Source: Streptomyces sporangiiformans (GTDB lineage Bacteria > Actinomycetota > Actinomycetes > Streptomycetales > Streptomycetaceae). From it: a stretch of 64,000 nucleotides of DNA. Shown in pieces: positions 25,011 to 37,069 of this stretch (position 1 is its first letter; each line of letters starts with the position of its first letter). The translations under genes were made by a program, and so were the position numbers. The notes beneath the pieces are model-generated. The model searched no databases, had not been told where the DNA came from, and saw only the letters and a program-made list of their open reading frames with translations. The stretch lies in assembly GCF_005768555.2 (NCBI RefSeq), contig NZ_VCHX02000079.1, forward strand, positions 3,814 to 67,813. Reading direction: 5' to 3'.

Positions 25011-25346
25011 CCGCGCCCCCACCGGTCGGACGTCACCGCACATCCAACCGCCACGACCAACCACCAACCCGGCGAACCTACGCGGTCACAGCACTGGATG
25101 GTTTCTGCCCAGTGATTGGTCGAAAATACCGATGAGTGCGCATCGATAACGACGACTGGACCGGACAATGGGGGGCGCATAGCATTCCAGAACCGCGAGA
25201 ATCGGCCACCCCGAGATGTGCGGTACGGCCGACGCAGCCCGCGGCTCATTGGTATCGGTCGTCGGTCTCCCCACGCTGTCGTCGCTGCCTGCTGGCCCCC
25301 TGCCGCAGGCCGATCAGATATCCCGCCACGCGATTTCGGAGAGGCC

Positions 25347-26669
25347 ATGACACCACCCCGTGCACGTTGGCGCGTACGCCGCCATCCTGCTTGCCTGTCA
25401 CTACTGCGGGGATCGGTCATGCTCGTGATCGCCCTGCTCGCCGTCGTGGCAGTGGGCGCTCCGACGTACGCGGCCGGTGATCGGACCGTGCAGGGAACGT
25501 TGCGCAACTCTGCAGACAACAACGCGCCGGTCGCTGGGGTGAAGATCAGTGCCCAGACCAGTACAGGGAAGACCTACACGGGCGTTAGCAACGACCAAGG
25601 CCGGTTCGTGATCACTGTGCCCGGCAGCGACTCGGGCACCTTGACCGTCACATTGGACACCAAAACGCTTCCCGATGCTGTGCAGATCCGCGACGGAGCG
25701 TCGAACACCTTGCGGCCAACGGGCAGCTTGAGCACGATCACCGTCAACTTCCCCCTCGGTCCCGATACCCGTCAAGTGTCGACAGCGTGGGACCAGGTCC
25801 CCCAACTGCTCTACAACGGCCTGCTGTTCGGCCTGGTGCTGTCATTGGGGGCTCTTGGCCTGTCCATGGTGTTCGGCACGACGGGACTGTCGAACTTCTC
25901 CCACGGCGAACTGGTGACCTTCGGGGCATTCGCCACCTATCTCGGCAACCGGGTCGTAGGGCTGCCGATCGTCGTGGCGGTGGCGGTGGCGGTAGTGCTG
26001 TCGGCACTGTTCGGCTACCTGAACGACAAGGGTTTGTGGGGTCCACTCAGACGCCGCGGAACGGGACTGATCGCCATGATGATCGTCTCGATCGGTCTGC
26101 AGTTCCTTCTCCGGAACTTCTACCAGTACTTCACAGGTGGCCGCGCCTTGACCTACCGCGAATACGTCACGCCCGCCGGCCGAGACGCCTTCGGCTTGTT
26201 CACCTATACCAATCGAGATGTTGTCGTCATCTCGATCAGTCTGCTTGCGCTCGTCGCGGTCACTCTTGCTTTGCAGTTCACCCGGCTCGGTCGCGCCACG
26301 CGCGCGGTGTCGGACAATCCGGCCCTGGCCTCTGCGACGGGGATCAACGTCGGTCGTGTCATAGCCACGGTGTGGATCGTGGGCACCGCGCTGGCGGGAC
26401 TGAGCGGGGCGTTCCTGGGATTCTCCCAATCGGTGACCTACCAACTGGGAGCGCAGGTACTGCTGTTGGTCTTCGCCGCTACCTGCGTCGGAGGTCTGGG
26501 ATCAGTGTGGGGCGCGATGATCGGCTCGATCATCATCGGGCTGTTCGTGGAGACCTCAACCTTGGTCATCCCATCGGAACTCAAGTTCGCGGGCGCGATG
26601 GTTCTGCTGGTGCTGGTCCTGCTCGTCCGACCACAAGGCCTGCTCGGCCGCGCCGAGAGGATCGGGTGA
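25347..26669 (+). CDS. livH: Branched-chain-type ABC permease (LivH) with N-terminal extracytoplasmic domain
   Basis: 440 residues. ATG 25347 follows GGAGAGG. Residues 1-43 form a signal peptide (VMLVIALLAVVAVGAPTYAAG). About 45-140 form a beta-rich domain resembling carboxypeptidase-regulatory or Ig-like folds (VQGTLRNSADNNAPVAGVKI, GVSNDQGRFVITVPG). From about 155 on is a LivH permease with typical segments: GLVLSLGALGLSMVFGTTG, NFSHGELVTFGAFATYLG, TRLGRATRAVSDNPALA, FVETSTLVIPSELK. The permease inserts in the membrane with the extra domain outside, where it could contact the binding protein. It is the first gene of a tight operon. Confidence 0.9.
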   Translation: MTPPRARWRVRRHPACLSLLRGSVMLVIALLAVVAVGAPTYAAGDRTVQGTLRNSADNNAPVAGVKISAQTSTGKTYTGVSNDQGRFVITVPGSDSGTLTVTLDTKTLPDAVQIRDGASNTLRPTGSLSTITVNFPLGPDTRQVSTAWDQVPQLLYNGLLFGLVLSLGALGLSMVFGTTGLSNFSHGELVTFGAFATYLGNRVVGLPIVVAVAVAVVLSALFGYLNDKGLWGPLRRRGTGLIAMMIVSIGLQFLLRNFYQYFTGGRALTYREYVTPAGRDAFGLFTYTNRDVVVISISLLALVAVTLALQFTRLGRATRAVSDNPALASATGINVGRVIATVWIVGTALAGLSGAFLGFSQSVTYQLGAQVLLLVFAATCVGGLGSVWGAMIGSIIIGLFVETSTLVIPSELKFAGAMVLLVLVLLVRPQGLLGRAERIG

Positions 26670-26673
26670 GGAC

Positions 26674-27654
26674 ATGGACATCATCGGCGCCCTCACGGGG
26701 GCACTGCACGACGGTTTCGGCTATCTGGCCGTCTCGTTCTGCTTGGCTGCGATCGGTTTGAACATTCAGTTCGGCTACGCCGGGCTGGTCAACTTCGGTC
26801 AGGCCGCCTTCTTGTCGGTAGGCGGTTACGTCATGGGCGCGGCGATCGCCACAAGCGGGGTTCCCACCGTCCTCGCGATTCTGCTCGCGATCGCCTTCAC
26901 CGTGGCGTTGGCGTTGATATTGGGTATCCCGACCCTGCGTCTTAGGGCGGATTACCTGGCGATCGTCACCATCGCGGCGGCAGAGATCCTACGACTTGTG
27001 TTCGGGACGTCGTTCCGGACGTACTTTCACGGCAAGGACGGTGTGACCGGCTTTACCGCCGGGTTCCGAAGCCTCAACCCGCTGCCGAACTACGACGGCT
27101 TCTTCCTGACCTACAGCCGGGAGGAGCTGTGGACAGTCATGGTCGGCTGGGGTTTGGTCATCATGATCAGTCTGCTCACCTGGGCCCTGATGCGATCACC
27201 GTGGGGAAGGGTTCTTCGGGGCATCCGTGAAGACGAGGACGCGATGCGGTCTCTGGGCAAGAACGTCTACGGCTACAAGATCCAGGCCCTCATCCTCGGT
27301 GGAGTGGTGGGATGCGTCGGAGGCTTCGTGGGCGCGTTCGGGGCCGCTTCGGTCCAGGCCGACACGTTCAACCTGGACTTCACCTTCATCGCCTTGACCA
27401 TGCTCATCCTGGGTGGCGCCGCTCGGGTCCTTGGTCCGGTCGTCGGCGCGGTGATGTTCTGGGCGATCCTGTCGTTCCTCGGATCGGTCTTGACTCAGTT
27501 GGCGAGCTACCCGGTCGTGGCCCAGTTCATGAACGCCGACCAAGCGTCAACCATCCGGCTGATGTTGGTCGGATTGGTGCTGATGCTGCTGATGATCTAC
27601 CGGCCGCAAGGCATCTTCGGTGATCGAAGGGAGATCGCGCTCGATGCCCACTGA
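26674..27654 (+). CDS. livM: Branched-chain-type ABC permease (LivM)
   Basis: 326-aa integral membrane permease, the second channel subunit. Family segments are clear: LNIQFGYAGLVNFGQAAFLS, GIPTLRLRADYLAIVTIAAA, SPWGRVLRGIREDEDAMRSL (the cytoplasmic EAA-like loop that contacts the ATPases) and MLILGGAARVLGPVVGAV. It begins 4 bp after livH and its end overlaps the livG start by 11 bases, which points to translational coupling. Confidence 0.92.
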   Translation: MDIIGALTGALHDGFGYLAVSFCLAAIGLNIQFGYAGLVNFGQAAFLSVGGYVMGAAIATSGVPTVLAILLAIAFTVALALILGIPTLRLRADYLAIVTIAAAEILRLVFGTSFRTYFHGKDGVTGFTAGFRSLNPLPNYDGFFLTYSREELWTVMVGWGLVIMISLLTWALMRSPWGRVLRGIREDEDAMRSLGKNVYGYKIQALILGGVVGCVGGFVGAFGAASVQADTFNLDFTFIALTMLILGGAARVLGPVVGAVMFWAILSFLGSVLTQLASYPVVAQFMNADQASTIRLMLVGLVLMLLMIYRPQGIFGDRREIALDAH

Positions 27655-28675
27655 CAACTTCCCCAATGACCACCTCTCCTCGGGCGCCGCACGCAAGGAC
27701 GTCTCCGCTGCCGGTGATACGTCCCAGCCAAGGGTTCCCGACCCCGGCGCCGGGGAGAACAAATCGATGCACGAGTGCCGGACTGCCTTGCAGTTGGTGC
27801 CGCATGAGGCTGGCGCTGCCAAACCCGACCCCATTGTGGTCGTGAACGGAATCCGCCGCACCTTCGGCGGCCTCACCGCGGTCGACGTGGAACATCTCGA
27901 AATCCAACGTGGGGTCATCACCGCCTTGATCGGACCCAACGGTGCGGGCAAGACCACGTTCTTCAACCTGCTCACCGGCTTCGATCAACCCGATGCCGGT
28001 TCCTGGTCCTTCGACGGGGCACCGCTCAAAGGCAAGGCAGCCTACAAAGTGGCACGCCTCGGCATGGTCCGGACCTTCCAGCTGACCAGAGTGCTCTCGA
28101 AACTGACGGTACTGGAGAACATGCGGATGGGCGCCACAGGTCAGCGTGGCGAACGCCTGTGGGCCGCCGCGCTCCCCGCCCTGTGGCGGGCGCAGGAACG
28201 AGACATCACCGACCGGGCCAGAGACCTGCTGAAGCGGTTCAAGCTCGACGCCAAGGAGGCAGACTTCGCCGGGTCCCTGTCAGGCGGCCAGAGAAAGCTG
28301 CTCGAGATGGCGCGAGCGCTCATGGTCGAACCGAAGCTGGTCATGCTCGACGAACCCATGGCCGGCGTCAACCCAGCGCTGAAGCAGTCCCTGCTCGGGC
28401 ATGTGAAGTCGCTGCGGGATCAGGGAATGAGCGTCCTGTTCGTCGAACACGACATGGACATGGTGCGAGAGATCTCCGACTGGGTGGTCGTCATGGCCCA
28501 GGGCAAGGTAATCGCCGAGGGACCCCCCACATCCATCATGTCCGACGAACGTGTCATCGATGCCTACCTCGGAGCTCGCCACGACACCGACATCAGCGAG
28601 CTCGAACGCGTAATCCAGGTCGAGCACACGCACGACCACGCCGAGCAGAGGGCCGACCGGGAGGTCCCGAGATGA
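27644..28675 (+). CDS. livG: ABC transporter ATP-binding protein (LivG)
   Basis: 343-aa ATPase of the importer. An N-terminal extension of about 60 polar residues precedes the ABC domain. Walker A is GPNGAGKTT, the Q-loop is in VRTFQLTRVLSKLTVLEN, the signature is LSGGQRK, Walker B is LVMLDEPMAGVNP, and the switch His lies in VLFVEHDMDMV. The C-terminal segment IDAYLGARHDTD is typical of LivG. ATG 27644 is used because it overlaps livM; the N-terminal extension is unusual and a later start is possible. Confidence 0.92.
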   Translation: MPTDNFPNDHLSSGAARKDVSAAGDTSQPRVPDPGAGENKSMHECRTALQLVPHEAGAAKPDPIVVVNGIRRTFGGLTAVDVEHLEIQRGVITALIGPNGAGKTTFFNLLTGFDQPDAGSWSFDGAPLKGKAAYKVARLGMVRTFQLTRVLSKLTVLENMRMGATGQRGERLWAAALPALWRAQERDITDRARDLLKRFKLDAKEADFAGSLSGGQRKLLEMARALMVEPKLVMLDEPMAGVNPALKQSLLGHVKSLRDQGMSVLFVEHDMDMVREISDWVVVMAQGKVIAEGPPTSIMSDERVIDAYLGARHDTDISELERVIQVEHTHDHAEQRADREVPR

Positions 28676-29556
28676 CTTCTGCCCATCACGGCCCATCGGA
28701 CTCCCAGGTCACCGATCAGGGCGAGATCGTGGCTGAAACCGACCCCAACGCCCCAAAGATCGACGAGGCAGCTCGGACAAGGCATCTGCAGGCGGCCGAG
28801 GGCGCAACCCTTCGCGCCGACAATCTGATCGCCGGGTACCTCCCCGGAGTCAACATCTTGAATGGCGCCGATCTGTACTGCCAACCCGGCGAGTTGGTCG
28901 GCATCATCGGACCCAACGGCGCCGGCAAGTCGACACTGCTCAAAGCACTCTTCGGGCTGGTCAAGATCACCACCGGGACGGTTCGCTTGCGGGGCGAGGA
29001 GGTCACGAACCAGCGCGCCGACGCACTGGTATCCCAAGGGATCGGCTTCGTACCGCAAACCAACAACATTTTCCCCTCGCTCACCATCGAGGAAAACCTG
29101 CAGATGGGGTGCTACCAGAACCCCAAGAAGTTCGCCCCCCGGTTCGCGTTCGTGACCGAGCTGTTCCCTGCGCTGGGCCGGCGCCGCAAGCAACGGGCCG
29201 GACAATTGTCAGGCGGTGAGCGGCAGATGGTGGCTATGGGCCGGGCTCTGATGATGGAACCCTCCGTGTTGTTGCTCGACGAACCCTCAGCGGGCCTGTC
29301 CCCGGCGATGCAGGACGAGGTGTTTGTCCAGACCCGAGCCATCAACCGCACCGGTGTGTCGGTCGTCATGGTCGAGCAGAACGCACGCCGCTGCCTGCAG
29401 ATCTGCGACCGCGGATACGTCCTCGACCAAGGACGCAATGCCCACACCGGGTCCGGACAGTCGCTGGCCCGTGACCCCAGGGTGATCGAGCTGTATCTCG
29501 GCACCTTGGCCAAGGCCGCCCAGGCAGACAGCACACCTGCCGACAGGCGGAACTAG
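28672..29556 (+). CDS. livF: ABC transporter ATP-binding protein (LivF)
   Basis: 294-aa second ATPase. Walker A is GPNGAGKST, the Q-loop is in FVPQTNNIFPSLTIEENL, the signature is LSGGERQ, Walker B is VLLLDEPSAGLSP, and the switch segment is VVMVEQNARRCL. The end VIELYLG is the usual LivF tail. ATG 28672 overlaps the livG stop (ATGA). As in LivG there is a polar N-terminal extension (about 45 residues) before the domain. Confidence 0.93.
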   Translation: MTSAHHGPSDSQVTDQGEIVAETDPNAPKIDEAARTRHLQAAEGATLRADNLIAGYLPGVNILNGADLYCQPGELVGIIGPNGAGKSTLLKALFGLVKITTGTVRLRGEEVTNQRADALVSQGIGFVPQTNNIFPSLTIEENLQMGCYQNPKKFAPRFAFVTELFPALGRRRKQRAGQLSGGERQMVAMGRALMMEPSVLLLDEPSAGLSPAMQDEVFVQTRAINRTGVSVVMVEQNARRCLQICDRGYVLDQGRNAHTGSGQSLARDPRVIELYLGTLAKAAQADSTPADRRN

Positions 29557-29678
29557 GACCCCGACCACACATCTTCGCCGGTCGAATTCTCCCCTCGCGT
29601 CCACTCCTGACACCCGCCACGGCACGGTCGTGCACCACACCAAGAGCGCAACAGTCATCACCCACACCTGGAGGTCCC

Positions 29679-30989
29679 ATGTCGCTCCCGCGACGCATCA
29701 TATGTATCGCCGTTTCGGCCTCCGCCGCGCTGGCAACCGCCGCTTGCGGCTCCAACAGCAGTCCCACCCAAGCCGGCAGCGAGCCGCCGGCCAAAGCGGG
29801 CACCCAGCTCTACTTCGTAGACGGCAACACGGCCGACTATTCCAGTGATTTCGAGCCGGGCACTCTCAACGGTGTGCGCGCCACCCTGCCCGGCGGCAAG
29901 ATCGGCGACGAGTTCCGGCAGAGGATCCTCAAGATCAACAGCAAGGTGAAGGACTTCACCTACGCTCCGGAGGCCTACGACGCCACGATCCTCTCTGCCC
30001 TGGCTGCGGTCGCCGCCAAGAAGGACTCCGGCAAGGCGATCGCCGAGAAGGAGATCGGCATCACCAGGGACGGGACAAAATGCACCAGCTTCAAGCAGTG
30101 CGCCGACCTACTCGCCGACGGAACGGACATCGACTACGACGGTGCCTCTGGCCCGATCGAGATGAACTCGACAGGAAGCCCGTCCGCGGCGACCGTCGGC
30201 ATCTACCAATTCGGGCAGGACAACAACTACAAGAATGTCCGCTACATCAACGGCACCACCCCGGACCAAGCCAACATCCGAGCCGACCAGAAGGTCAGCG
30301 GCCCCATCCCCAAGGGGGACGGCACCCTAACGTTTGGCACCCTGCTCCCTGCCACCGGGGACAGCTCCTTCCTCGGCGCCCCGCAGTTCGCCGGCGTGGA
30401 CCTCGCCATTGATGAAATCAACAAGGCCGGGGGCGTGCTGGGCAAAGATGTGAAGCAGTTGAAGGGCGACTCCGGTGACGGGTCGCCGAACATCGCGCCA
30501 TCCGAGACCGACAAACTGCTCCGCGGTGGCGCCGACGTCATCATCGGCGCCGCTTCCTCGTCGGTGTCGCTGTCGGTCATCGACAAGATCACCGGTGCTG
30601 GCGTCGTCCAGATATCGGCCGGAAACACCTCGACCGCATTCGACACCTACCCCGACCACGGCATGTACTTCCGCACGGCCCCCTCCGACGTCCTGCAGGG
30701 GCAGGTGATGGCCCAGACCATCAGCGAGGACGGTCACAGCAACATCGCGATCCTCGCCCGACAGGACGCCTACGGAGAGGCATTGGCGAAGAACGTCCGC
30801 TCCTTCTACGAGGAGTCCGGCGGCAAAGTCGTCTCCTACGTCCTCTACGACGCGACCGCAGCCAACTACACGGCCGAGGTGGAGAAGGTGAAGGCCCAGC
30901 ACCCGGACGCCATCGTGCTGATCTCGTTCGACGAGGCCAAAAAGATCGTCCCGGAACTCATCAAAGCCGGTATCGGCCAGAACGGCTGA
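29679..30989 (+). CDS. Substrate-binding lipoprotein, apparently circularly permuted
   Basis: 436-aa receptor of the importer. Residues 1-23 are a lipoprotein signal (ALATAAC, lipidated Cys23). In the usual LivJ-type receptors of actinomycetes the order is a first part starting GTLTxGTLLPxTG, ending ELIKxGIG, followed by a second part starting YFVDGN. Here the order is reversed: residues 42-192 are the second part (LYFVDGNTADYSSDFEPG, FTYAPEAYDATILSALAA, the Cys135/Cys141 pair, YDGASGPIEMNSTGSPS, VGIYQFGQDNNYKNV), residues 193-213 form a linker, and 214-436 are the first part (GTLTFGTLLPATGDSSFLG, DVIIGAASSSVSLSVIDKI, YFRTAPSDVLQG, LARQDAYGEALA, FDEAKKIVPELIKAGIGQNG). All segments seem present. 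GGAGG precedes ATG 29679. Confidence 0.88.
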   Translation: MSLPRRIICIAVSASAALATAACGSNSSPTQAGSEPPAKAGTQLYFVDGNTADYSSDFEPGTLNGVRATLPGGKIGDEFRQRILKINSKVKDFTYAPEAYDATILSALAAVAAKKDSGKAIAEKEIGITRDGTKCTSFKQCADLLADGTDIDYDGASGPIEMNSTGSPSAATVGIYQFGQDNNYKNVRYINGTTPDQANIRADQKVSGPIPKGDGTLTFGTLLPATGDSSFLGAPQFAGVDLAIDEINKAGGVLGKDVKQLKGDSGDGSPNIAPSETDKLLRGGADVIIGAASSSVSLSVIDKITGAGVVQISAGNTSTAFDTYPDHGMYFRTAPSDVLQGQVMAQTISEDGHSNIAILARQDAYGEALAKNVRSFYEESGGKVVSYVLYDATAANYTAEVEKVKAQHPDAIVLISFDEAKKIVPELIKAGIGQNG

Positions 30990-31084: not shown

Positions 31085-32317
31085 ATGACCACCAGGCCAA
31101 CAAAAGCCATGCCTACCGCCACCGCAGAGCACGGTGCCGACCCCGATTTTGACACGGTGTACGACCGCGCCGCTTTCGGGTCAGCGAAATGGGCAAACCA
31201 GTGGGACGAATTTTCACCGCGTGTCCGGGGCGAGGATCTGCTGTCGCTATGGACGGCCGACATGGACTTCCGGGCACCGACGACCGTCATCGACCGCCTG
31301 CGCGCCGCTGCGGACCACGGTATCTACGGTTACACCCTGCGGGACCCGGAACACTTCCGGATCGTGCAGAACTGGTTCACCGTCAGACACGGCTGGACAC
31401 CACCGGTGGAAACGCTCCTCCCGGCCCCCGCGATCATGTCCTCGGTCGCAGCGATCTTGCGCACCTTCACCGCCCCCGGAGACGGGGTGATCGTCCAATC
31501 ACCGGTCTACTCGCCGAACTTCGAGGCCATTACCGGTAACCACCGGCGGCTGCTCGTGAACCGACTACGGCTCATCGACAACCGCTACGAGTTCGACCTC
31601 GACAACCTGGCCGAGCTGGCCGCATCCGGCGCAAAGGTGCTCTTGCTCTGCAACCCCCACAATCCCTCGGGCCGGAGCTGGACGGCCGACGAGTTGCTCG
31701 CCGTGAACGACATCTGTGCGCGCCACGACCTCCTGGTGATTTCCGACGAGATTCACTGCGACATCCGACTGAACGGTCGGCCCCACGTGGCCTACGCCTC
31801 GATCAGCAGCGACGCCGCCCGCCGAGCATTCATCTGCACTGCCCCCACGAAGACCTTCAACCTTGCCGGCCTGCCATCGGCCACACTCTCGGTTGCCGAT
31901 CCATCCCTGCGCTCGGAACTGCTGAACGCCATGCGGGCATCGTTCATGATCAACGCGCACTACTTCGGTCGTCTCGCCTTAGAGACTGCCTACACCACGG
32001 GTGGTCCGTGGCTCGACCGGCTGACCGACTATCTCAAGGGCAACGTGGCCTTCGTGCACGAGTTCGTCCAAGAGCGGCTGCCCGAGATCACGCCGATGCC
32101 GCCGGACGCATCGTTCCTGGTCTGGTTGGAGGCTCGTGAGCTTGACGCTCGTGTGGGCGGGCTGCACCAGTTCCTTGTCGACCGGGCGGCTGTCAATCTC
32201 TACGACGGCCGGGTCTACGGCCCCGGAGGAGAGGGGTACGTCCGACTCAACGTCGGCTGCCCCCGGAAAGTGCTGACTGAGGCGCTCGAACGCATCGATC
32301 GTGCGCTGTCACGATAG
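31085..32317 (+). CDS. patB: MalY/PatB-family PLP-dependent C-S beta-lyase
   Basis: 410-aa fold-type I aminotransferase-like enzyme that, in known relatives, cleaves cysteine S-conjugates or cystathionine to thiol, pyruvate and ammonia. Family marks: [57 protein letters not shown], and the PLP Lys in [16 protein letters not shown]. The C-terminal [11 protein letters not shown] binds substrate carboxylate. It follows the ABC importer on the same strand, which suggests that the imported compound is an amino acid or S-conjugate processed here. An aminotransferase role cannot be excluded. Confidence 0.87.
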
Positions 32318-34153: not shown

Positions 34154-35332
34154 TCACCAGCCGGTGACGCGTTCCCAGATGGTTTGAATCGCCGGTGCGG
34201 TGTTCGTGGTCCGGGCGCCGTCGATGACGTGGTAGCCGTGGTGCTGAGCGGCGGTGGCGCAGGCGTGATTGGGCAGGATGCGCAGGCGAGTGCCGACGGG
34301 CAGGTCGGGCAGGTGGGCGCTGTCCCGGGCGGTGAGGGTGCCGTGTTCCTGGCTTGCGCCCGTCATGACCAGGCCCGGGATGAGGTTGCCGTCCAGGTCG
34401 GTGACCAGGCCGTAGCCCTGGTCCTGCGCCTGGACGGCCGTGCCGCGGTCGCGGGACATGGCCATCCAGCCGCCGTCGGTGATGATCCACCCGTACTCGC
34501 GGCGGTGGCCGATGACGGTGACGACGACCGACAGGGCGAGGTCCTCGATGCGGCAGACGCCGAGGCCGGCCATCACCAGGTCGAAGAAGACGTAGTTCCC
34601 CGCGCGCAGTTCGGTGACGCCGGTGAGGTCCTCGGCTGCGTGGGCGGTGGGGGTGGAGCCGACGCTGACGGTGGCCACGGGCAGGCCGGCCGCGCGCAGC
34701 CGTTCGGCCGCGGCGACGGCGATGTCGCGTTCGTTCTTCGCCGCCAGGCACTGTTCCTCGACGGTGTAGGCGAAGTACGACTCGCCCGCGTGGGCCAGCA
34801 CACCGTCCAGACAGCCGGCGTCGTACAGGATGCGGCCGATCTCAGGGAGCGTGGGGGCATCGGGCTTGAGGCCGCCGCGGTGGCCGTCGCAGTCGATCTC
34901 GATCTGAGTGGGGATGGGAAGGCCGGCCCGGCGGGAGGCTTCGGCGACGAACTCCGCCTGCTCGGCGCTGTCCAGCAGGATGCGCAGGGTGACACCGCGG
35001 CGCAGCAGCGCGAGGACGCGCGGGAGTTTGTGGGGGTCGATGCCGACGGCGTAGGTGATGTCGGTGTAGCCGCCGTCGGCGAACGCCTCGGCCTCGGCAA
35101 GGGTGGAGACAGTGACCGGGCAGGGTGTGTCGTCGTGCAGGAGGCCGGCGACGTCGAGGCTCTTGGCCGTCTTCACGTGGGGGCGCAGGGCCACCCCGAG
35201 CCGGTCGGCCCTGGCTGCCAGTCGTTCGATGTTGCGCCGGCTCTTGTGGACGTCGACGACGGCGAACGGGGTGTCGGGGTCGGCCAGAGTCCGGGCGGCG
35301 CTCGGGCTGGCGGCGTTTGCGGGGATGTTCAC
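34154..35332 (-). CDS. D-threonine aldolase/D-serine dehydratase-like PLP enzyme
   Basis: 392-aa fold-type III PLP enzyme (alanine racemase N-terminal barrel). The PLP Lys is in LRPHVKTAKSLDVAG. The C-terminal metal-binding region has LPNHACATAAQH, as in D-threonine aldolases and DSD1-type D-serine dehydratases, and YGWIITDGGWMAMSRDRG is also typical. GTG 35332 is chosen because it overlaps the stop of the upstream gene (GTGA). In the operon behind an ornithine cyclodeaminase-like gene and a DauR-like regulator, a role in breakdown of a D- or beta-hydroxy amino acid is likely. Confidence 0.87.
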   Translation of the reverse strand: MNIPANAASPSAARTLADPDTPFAVVDVHKSRRNIERLAARADRLGVALRPHVKTAKSLDVAGLLHDDTPCPVTVSTLAEAEAFADGGYTDITYAVGIDPHKLPRVLALLRRGVTLRILLDSAEQAEFVAEASRRAGLPIPTQIEIDCDGHRGGLKPDAPTLPEIGRILYDAGCLDGVLAHAGESYFAYTVEEQCLAAKNERDIAVAAAERLRAAGLPVATVSVGSTPTAHAAEDLTGVTELRAGNYVFFDLVMAGLGVCRIEDLALSVVVTVIGHRREYGWIITDGGWMAMSRDRGTAVQAQDQGYGLVTDLDGNLIPGLVMTGASQEHGTLTARDSAHLPDLPVGTRLRILPNHACATAAQHHGYHVIDGARTTNTAPAIQTIWERVTGW

Positions 35333-36333
35333 GGGGAGATGTCCATCTTCTTCAGAAGGGCCAGGCCCAAATACAGGTCCTGCAATCCGATTCCGGAGCT
35401 GTCGAAGACCGTGATGTCGTTGTCGTCGATGCGTCCCGCGGCGTGGTGGGTGAGAAGCTCGCCGAGCGGGGTCAGGACCGTCCCCGCAGGGGCGTGCTGG
35501 CTTTCGCCCATGCGGCGAGCCTGCTCGGGCAGGTCGCAGAAGACGCGGGCGCGGCTGAACAGTTCGGGCGGGAGTTCCCGCTTGCCGGGGACGTCCGCGC
35601 CCATGCAGGAGATGTCCGTACCGGGCCGGACCCACGCGGCCTCGAACAGTGGTGGGGTGTCGGCCGTGGCGGTGGTGGCGGTGACGATCACATCGGCCCG
35701 GGCGCAGGCTTCTTCGGCGCCGACGCGACGGGCGTCGTGTCCTTCTGCGGCCAGTGCCGCGGTCATCTGCTCGGCACGCTCGGCGGTGCGTCCCACAACC
35801 AGGACCTCGCCGATGGGCCGGATGCGGCTGACGGCCCCCACCTCTTAGGCCGCCTGGTGTCCGGTGCCGAAGACCGCCAGCGTGGTGGTGTCGGCACGGG
35901 TCAGCAGGTCGACGGCGAGGGCGTCGGCCGCAGCGGTGCGGTAGGCGTTCGCGGTGCCGACCTCCAGGACGGCCGCGATCCTGCCGATCGTCTGGTCGAA
36001 GAGCAGCAGGGTGGAGTGATGGCGCGGCAGCCCGTGCTCCGCGTTGCCCGGCCAGTAGGTACCGATCTTCACCCCGGCGTGCGTCGCGGACGCCGACGGC
36101 TTGAGGGTGAACCGGTTGCGCGGGTCGGACCCGTGCACGGCCAGACTGGGAAAGGCCGTGCCGTCCACCGTCGCGGCGAAGGCGGCACGGGCCGCTTCAA
36201 GGGCCAGGTCCTCGTCCACGAGCGCTGCGGTCTGCTCTTCAGTGATGTGCAGCAGGCGGCGCGCAGCCGGTGGCCGGCCGGAGCCGGACGAGGGAGCGGG
36301 AACGGGGTCGGTGGTCGATCCGGCGGCGGTCAC
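35329..36333 (-). pseudogene. Ornithine cyclodeaminase/mu-crystallin family, one in-frame stop
   Basis: NAD-dependent cyclodeaminase or ketimine reductase family, about 334 codons. The first half has LKPSASATHAGVKIGTYWPG, LLLFDQTIGRIAAVLE, NAYRTAAADALAVDLL and the nucleotide loop start VFGTGHQAA. A TAA at 35847-35845 interrupts, after which the same frame continues with SRIRPIGEVLVVGRTAERAE, DVIVTATTATADTP and DLPEQARRMGESQHA to the normal end. No bases are lost, so a single substitution (a Tyr codon TAC to TAA would suffice) explains it. A GTG at 35841 could restart, giving only the C-terminal half. Confidence 0.88.
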
Positions 36334-36343
36334 GAGCGGCCCT

Positions 36344-37069
36344 TCACTTCGTGTAGTTGTAGACGGTCGCCCGGGACACGCCAAGCAGGTCCGCGATGGT
36401 CTGCGCGGCATCGCGCGAGTCGAAGTAGCCGTCCTGGTGCAGCTGCCGTACGAGTGCCTTCTTGTCCTCCCTGCTCAGCGACCGGGGGGTCGCGGCGCGC
36501 TCCACGGCCAGTTCCTCCACTGCCTGGCGCAGCTCGCGCGCGTTGCGGTCCCGCAGGGTTTCCAGGGCCTGCTCGCGGTGCTCGGTCTCCGTGGCCACGA
36601 GGTTCGACAACGCGAGCGTCACCGGTGACAGCACCGAGACGTCGAGGTTCAGGCAGAGCGCCGCGATGTACTCGCCGGCGGCATTCTTGATCCCGATGGA
36701 CGTGCTCTTGGCCGGGCGGCCGTCGGGGAACTGGTTGGGGTAGTTCTGGATGACGCTGGGGTAGCCGGGATCCTCAATGCGGGCCAGGCCCAGCTCTGTG
36801 ACGGAGTCCCCGACCTTGCGGCCGGAGAGGTTGTTCTCGATCGCCCGGATCGCATGCTGCGGATCCCGCAGGTCGTGCAGAACCACCTCGCACAGGCCCG
36901 GGAACATGCGACCCAGCGCAACAGCGATCTTCTCGGCCTCACGGATGAGGTGCTCATCCGCCTCGGCCTGGGCCGCGGCACCGACGCCCTCGTGTTCGTC
37001 CCTCTCCGCACCATCAACGACGCGTTCCACGGGGCCCCTTTCCGAACCTGGATTAGATCTGCATTCCAT
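36344..37069 (-). CDS. YheO/DauR-like regulator (PAS + HTH)
   Basis: 241-aa regulator. About residues 45-165 form a YheO-like PAS domain (MFPGLCEVVLHDLRDPQHAI, NNLSGRKVGDSVTELGL, YPNQFPDGRPAKSTSIGIKN). The C-terminus is the HTH of this family (REDKKALVRQLHQDGYFDSR, DAAQTIADLLGVSRATVYNY). DauR of Pseudomonas controls D-arginine use, which agrees with the D-amino-acid-type enzymes downstream. It is the first gene of the operon; its stop is 10 bp before the cyclodeaminase GTG. Start at 37069; the first 40 residues are poorly conserved. Confidence 0.88.
   Translation of the reverse strand: MECRSNPGSERGPVERVVDGAERDEHEGVGAAAQAEADEHLIREAEKIAVALGRMFPGLCEVVLHDLRDPQHAIRAIENNLSGRKVGDSVTELGLARIEDPGYPSVIQNYPNQFPDGRPAKSTSIGIKNAAGEYIAALCLNLDVSVLSPVTLALSNLVATETEHREQALETLRDRNARELRQAVEELAVERAATPRSLSREDKKALVRQLHQDGYFDSRDAAQTIADLLGVSRATVYNYTK

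Follow-up and report, generated by a model that had tools for sequence, protein, structure and literature searches.

A circularly permuted LivJ-type receptor gene adjoining a liv importer gene set, and its likely recurrent origin

Introduction

Natural circular permutations are usually encountered when the event is old and the parent gene is gone. The closest described system is TpMglB-2 (Tp0684) of Treponema pallidum, a natural, lipidated and permuted sugar receptor for which the designation 'type Ic' was proposed, according to the accessible part of its description (PMC4990184). In that part, the first three strands of the N lobe are moved to the end of the chain, the moved part being 13% identical to its normal counterpart; the protein has a fourth crossover between the lobes, and the authors note a similar distribution of its permease (PMC4990184). 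No permuted LivJ-type receptor was found in the literature listings searched, which covered few subscription journals, and a term search of PMC12667903 gave no occurrence.

The stretch of DNA analysed here (64,000 nt from Streptomyces sporangiiformans, hereafter the window) contains such a receptor gene. Its open reading frame (29679–30989, + strand) is a clean circular permutation of a LivJ-type receptor, with the break in a loop. We describe its architecture, predicted fold and neighbourhood, and the distribution of the permuted order among its relatives.

Results

Architecture of the permuted receptor

The ATG of the reading frame, which is open and codes for 436 aa, is preceded by a Shine-Dalgarno-like GGAGG (29670–29674, + strand). 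All parts of the chain are encoded on the same strand. The signal peptide (residues 1–22, 29679–29744) has a lipobox-like TAA-C end, those of the Nocardioides relatives ending in LVLAAC or similar, and is followed by Cys23, where lipidation presumably occurs, and a 20-residue low-complexity tether (together residues 23–43, 29745–29807). The old C-terminal segment comes next (residues 44–193, 29808–30257), from LYFVDGN, which starts at residue 44, to slightly past GIYQFGQDNNY; Asp48 of its VDGN motif is 25 residues past Cys23. A new linker (residues 194–212, 30258–30314) then joins the old C-terminus to the old N-terminus, and the old N-terminal segment is now last (residues 213–436, 30315–30986), from GDGTLTFG, starting at residue 213, to ELIKAGIGQNG and the stop codon.

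Profile PF13458 (Peripla_BP_6) matched the window receptor with 109.7 bits, against a curated cut-off of 31.7, which places it in the family, although the match covered only residues 217–433, corresponding to positions 2–216 of the 343 in the profile. After in silico rotation of the protein, PF13458 was matched in a single stretch (2–306, 114.3 bits) and ANF_receptor was covered from 6 to 350 (100.6 vs 91.2 bits unrotated). Since the profile is not linear in the receptor and runs from 2 to 306 once this is rotated, the protein is a permuted relative of Peripla_BP_6. The gain for Peripla_BP_6 upon rotation is a modest 4.6 bits, a normal-order relative itself matching just 1–308, and the proof of the permutation therefore comes from close relatives. 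Besides these two families, the receptor matched PF13433; no sugar-receptor family was listed among Pfam profiles at E up to 1, a listing limited by the HMMER filters, which discard most matches above E ~0.1.

Comparison with permuted and normal relatives

We searched for the two segments separately in 80 loci, and found the order C then N in 15 of them (from Nocardioides, Marmoricola, Nonomuraea and Streptomyces), N then C in 46, and the N-segment only in the remaining 19. The normal-order receptors of Nocardioides (loci L023–L029) are 59–64% identical to the window receptor in the N-segment and 48–53% in the C-segment. Their alignment with the rotated permuted proteins runs end to end, with ca. 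15 linker residues at the old ends of the latter. The separate segment tests and the rotation thus bear out the original prediction, made from the window alone, that the C-terminal segment was placed first after the lipoprotein signal, as well as the break site, the segment ends and the linker of about 20 residues that it proposed. Aligned as two halves, the protein gave C then N and not the linear order of Peripla_BP_6, the latter being what the prediction had named as speaking against it. The break does lie between ELIKAGIG and YFVDGN, although these are not strictly adjacent in ordinary members, as had been claimed, because the normal Nocardioides receptors carry a few additional residues at this point (GVGPQDVQLYFVDGN).

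The permuted order is conserved and under purifying selection. Permuted genes were read from 32 different genomes, that of the window included, with dN/dS values of 0.11–0.44 (9 pairs), compared to 0.17–0.56 for normal-order genes (3 pairs). Furthermore, protein searches with the window receptor, with a protein broken at a second site (break B, see below) and with a protein from family f36 returned only permuted proteins among the best 120 of 7559, 7995 and 7957 matches, respectively, that is, in 360 of the 360 matches listed. An intact frame and operon had been taken as signs of a plausible working receptor, a view that conservation, purifying selection and the predicted fold support.

Tracing eight ordered blocks through the fetched loci yielded two full orders, normal in 75 cases and permuted in 38, counts in which at least two of the former (L097, L098) and seven of the latter (L130–L136) are second fetches of the same genes; distant loci yielded too few blocks. 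Mixed orders were seen in L055, L063 and L068, which are loci with tandem copies; L022 was odd at a contig edge, and L057 was truncated. Other break sites were considered and discarded, because only two full orders appeared and the mixed ones are explained by the tandem copies. Judged from gene coordinates, the gaps flanking the receptor leave too little room for relics of the lost pieces, both in the window (122 and 95 bp) and in L018 (ca. 133 and 177 bp). Three plasmid records were matched, of which the best two (from Nonomuraea gerenzanensis, chromosome-sized, and Arthrobacter) show the normal order. The N. gerenzanensis stretch also contains, upstream, the end of a second receptor copy.

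Predicted structure

The model of the window receptor (pLDDT 91, pTM 0.88) was obtained from an alignment in which 44 of the 109 rows were half-length and cut from normal relatives, so that it is not fully independent of these. The tether was modeled poorly (pLDDT 51 and 59 in the first two 10-residue blocks), and the linker region, covered by model blocks 171–200, with confidence (88, 95 and 98). In the predicted fold, the elements of the normal model recur in rotated order and differ slightly in length, as with a helix of four residues in the normal model that has three in the permuted one. The moved segment, residues 213–436, aligns with residues 1–221 of 3ipc. The permuted receptor is thus predicted to fold as the usual two-lobed receptor, and the model presents the normal elements with moved termini that the original prediction had proposed looking for.

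Further permuted lineages and a second break

Searching at E ≤ 1e-60, we obtained matches in 81 of 394 genomes sampled across the class, 11 of them with permuted receptors, and in 23 of 396 sampled across the phylum, 8 of them permuted; genomes G000 and G145 are common to both samples. The best four candidates per genome were scored in these searches, and the best six with the normal-order query described below. The search for further genomes with the same order, suggested by the original prediction, thus found many, and the permutation goes beyond one gene, being widespread and probably recurrent.

The permuted receptors are broken at two sites. Break A, that of the window, occurs in families f28, f26, f36, f50 and f39, and break B, situated 20–25 residues beyond it, in families f58, f71 and f112, outside the window's class. 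Break-B proteins end like ...YGCDGNMGN..G..FDAG: among the best 120 matches of the break-B query, DGN was within the last 60 residues in 101 and near the start in none, the tail motif varying in the remaining 19, six of which were read. One listed match bears the name Acidimicrobiales bacterium, and the f36 query that of Actinomycetales bacterium. The sequences of the linkers differ between permuted lineages. As a control for search bias, the normal-order receptor of L030 was used as query, producing matches in 120 of 296 genomes. The receptor was split in 10 of these, with the N-piece ending at positions 220–222 and the C-piece, which did not pass in two of the ten, starting at 217–226 of 379.

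The gene arrangement varies among these lineages. L132 (f50), a separate lineage, is also found at a gltD-pyk-ANTAR-receptor-livFGMH locus, as in Nocardioides (see below), which suggests versions of one ancestral gene. For the permuted L128 and L129 (f39), no liv genes were recognised in the 16–17 kb fetched; both sit on a very long branch (1.35) and are possibly an orphan receptor or a sensor. In the break-B loci L139 and L140 (f58), livH is divergent beside the receptor, in contrast to L137, L138, L141 and L142, where the receptor adjoins convergent livF and livG.

Number of origins

A first tree, which left out the partial sequences L022 and L057, showed a single permuted group; a single-lineage event was dropped as an explanation after wider sampling added lineages and one clade was rejected. 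A tree of 86 rows, built without L109, L050_7255, nine divergent tandem copies and 22 Microbacteriaceae rows resembling others that were kept, requires five changes of order, at least three of them forced by well-supported branches, and a tree of 46 rows requires four, with several deep forks at support 57–70. In AU tests on 46 of the 86 rows, a single clade was rejected for the permuted forms taken together (p 9.8e-6), the break-A forms taken together (5e-5) and Nocardioidaceae with f26/f36 (6.7e-4), and these three rejections stand after correction for 7 tests. Weaker rejections, which would not, concerned a clade of f26/f36 with f39/f50 (0.019) and one of every non-Nocardioidaceae form (0.013), and a single clade remained acceptable for break B by itself (0.14) and for break B joined to f39/f50 (0.235). 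The trees of the single segments require five (N-segment) and seven changes (C-segment); their resolution is poor, they conflict over L128/L129 and L106, and that of the C-segment places normal-order L107 among the permuted Nocardioidaceae, with support 42. We take these results to reflect at least two permutation events, and probably three or more; a repeated origin of the permutation within the family, confined to a short part of the chain, is likely.

The alternative, a single ancient permutation after which the normal order was regained repeatedly and the break drifted, appears unlikely by comparison with this repeated origin. It would account for the proximity of both breaks, within 20–25 residues of each other, and for the finding of no other break with the L030 query in the 120 matched genomes, aside from three short partial matches (G083, G092 and G110) that probably correspond to contig ends; a common origin of break-B and f39/f50 forms, moreover, is possible (p 0.14 and 0.235). 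Nevertheless, it clashes with the rejection of a single permuted clade and with the differences in linker sequence between lineages. Besides, both the Pfam profile and the solved structures have the normal order, and each return would need to restore the original ends.

Importer genes and function of the receptor

Upstream of the receptor, and in the same direction, are genes for a LivH-type permease (25392–26669, PF02653 E=1.2e-36; start tentative, since the frame opens at 25116), a LivM-type permease (26674–27654, PF02653 E=1e-36), a LivG-type ATPase (27620–28675, true start probably further in; ABC_tran, BCA_ABC_TP_C, and PRK11300 at E=5.6e-67 and 225.7 bits, below the cut-off of this LivG model) and a LivF-type ATPase (28648–29556, start approximate; ABC_tran E=1.2e-33). 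Downstream, also on the + strand, is a gene for a PatB-family C-S lyase (31085–32317; TIGR04350, 387.7 bits, over cut-off). Two permeases and two ATPases accompany the receptor gene and make up the set of a LivJ/HAAT importer, to which the receptor would likely deliver a small amino-acid-like solute after binding it. Because the PatB-family gene adjoins the permuted receptor in all six window-type loci examined (WIN, L009–L013), we would guess at an S-substituted cysteine or a similar amino acid as the ligand.

The LivH protein has an N-terminal extracytoplasmic, beta-sandwich-like extension. Similar CarboxypepD_reg/Ig-like domains were present in the five LivH proteins examined, mostly as weak matches (PF13620 E=2.8e-6 in the window, below cut-off, and 5.5e-22 in L031, over it), accompanying both permuted (window, L016) and normal receptors (L027, L031, L033).

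Further along the window, on the – strand, an ornithine-cyclodeaminase/BhcD-like gene (35329–36411) appears split in two frames (35845–36411 and 35329–35841), the best model match of the first piece spanning only positions 4–140 of 321. A BhcC-like gene (3-hydroxy-D-aspartate aldolase; 34154–35635, – strand; E 4e-27, far below cut-off) adjoins these pieces, possibly as a hydroxy-amino-acid cluster beside the importer.

In Nocardioides, receptors of both orders occupy the same slot, after gltB, gltD, pyk and an ANTAR response regulator and before livF/G/M/H on the opposite strand, some loci being cut off or without a called gene. In the 15 Nocardioidaceae loci used, which hold the flanking genes and do not include L015 and L021, a single group of permuted strains is rejected by gltB, gltD and pyk (1746 columns; p-AU 2e-72); however, the division of 16 loci by livM, livH, livF and livG coincides exactly, for each gene, with receptor order (supports 100/100, 100/100, 100/99 and 100/100). 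Since the liv genes follow the order of the receptor and the flanking genes do not, the permuted receptor together with its importer behaves as a single cassette open to exchange.

The window copy is 95–97% identical to copies from Streptomyces and Nonomuraea, which belong to different families. In 36 further genomes from the genus of the window, we found no permuted match and three of normal order (E ≤ 1e-20). The genome of the window also carries a normal-order relative, with ca. 43% identity in the N-segment. These data suggest that the cassette probably reached this genome, and the near-identical Nonomuraea and Streptomyces copies, sideways, likely from a Marmoricola-like source, to which the window copies have an affinity with support 100/95.

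Proteins with this fold also include sensors and regulators, such as AmiC, and the permuted protein might be one of these and no longer an import receptor. There are 17 Peripla_BP_6 matches in the window's genome (14 over cut-off, the window gene among them), another of which could serve the liv cassette, and L128 and L129 have no liv genes nearby. We consider this reading very unlikely, given the signal peptide with its lipobox-like Cys, the complete adjoining liv set, the occupation of the slot of normal receptors, the co-inheritance with livH/M/F/G and the presence of a single receptor gene in each Nocardioides locus fetched. Even less probable is a chimera, in which each segment would derive from a separate parent gene: the segment trees do differ, albeit in weakly supported places, whereas for both segments of the Nocardioidaceae form the closest normal relatives include normal receptors of Nocardioidaceae, with which each segment also groups in its own tree. 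Lastly, an assembly artefact or a decaying rearranged gene is rejected as practically negligible, despite the 351 contigs of the window's assembly, in view of the same kind of order in many genomes and in all matches listed, and of the dN/dS values.

Discussion

Proposed origin and consequences

Very probably, the joint best explanation is a permuted receptor that keeps its fold, serves the import of an amino-acid-like solute with its anchor shifted, derives from a duplication, recurs among lineages and arrived horizontally in the window's genome. Its origin would start with tandem duplication of the receptor gene, after which copy 1 would lose its N-terminal segment while keeping the signal peptide, read-through would extend into copy 2, with loss of the signal peptide of the latter, and copy 2 would finally be truncated.

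The signal peptides of the Nocardioides genes have a mean identity of 0.41 across orders, 0.47 within permuted (9) and 0.55 within normal (7) receptors. Signal peptides resemble one another in general, and their likeness is thus weak evidence for a kept copy-1 signal. Tandem normal-order copies, which represent the first step of this route, occur in Microbacteriaceae, Nocardiopsis and genomes G181, G333, G149 and G239. Tandem pairs were recorded in L065 and L066; L037, L038, L047, L053, L055, L058, L059, L063 and L068; and L146, the copies of Nocardiopsis being closely similar and those of Microbacteriaceae having diverged strongly. The tandem duplication put forward by the original prediction hence fits the signal peptides and the recurring tandem copies; no intermediate was found among the loci and genomes sampled, and we therefore infer the route rather than observe it.

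The receptor would be tethered by its N-terminus, so that the anchor would lead into the segment with the conserved ligand-cleft Asp, not into the start of lobe 1, and the new linker would add one more chain crossing between the lobes. Should the N-terminal domain of LivH retain the receptor, there may be freedom for the receptor's own tether to shift. A more elaborate reading, which we hold only tentatively and with some doubt, is that of a recurrent and selected switch of permutation, by which a number of actinobacterial lineages would independently have opened the chain at the same lobe-2 loop. The tether would thereby shift from lobe 1 to the segment with the ligand acid, and the permuted receptor would spread in a cassette with a co-adapted permease whose extracellular beta-sandwich may hold the receptor.

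If recurrence holds, evolution has made the same topological change repeatedly, at a single site of this family. In practice, profile searches show such receptors as half-length matches, which should serve as a warning, and the break points to a place where nature tolerates a cut in LivJ-type receptors, a family that serves in biosensors (e.g. 8z0g).

Comparison with known systems

The window receptor shares with the solved LivJ-type structures (3ipc, 3ip5, 4n0q and 4gnr) the family match, the predicted fold elements and the acid of DGN, and differs from them in its termini, the break lying after residue 221 of 3ipc. With the Nocardioides receptors of L023–L029 it shares the chromosomal slot, the importer genes and the predicted elements; in contrast, the order of the segments is different and their livH/M/G/F form a separate group. 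Permuted and ordinary receptors thus share a slot in one genus, with segments 48–64% identical, which makes the mechanism, cost and benefit of the permutation directly testable.

With TpMglB-2, as far as the accessible part of its description goes, the window receptor has in common a circularly permuted type I fold and an extra crossover between lobes, both predicted in the window, as well as a lipid anchor, presumed here, and a permease of similar distribution. It belongs, however, to Peripla_BP_6 and not to the sugar-receptor family (MglB), and its moved piece (residues 213–436) is far larger than three strands of the N lobe. Finally, whereas TpMglB-2 is without a clear parent in that account, the segments of the window receptor retain close identity to normal relatives at the same locus.
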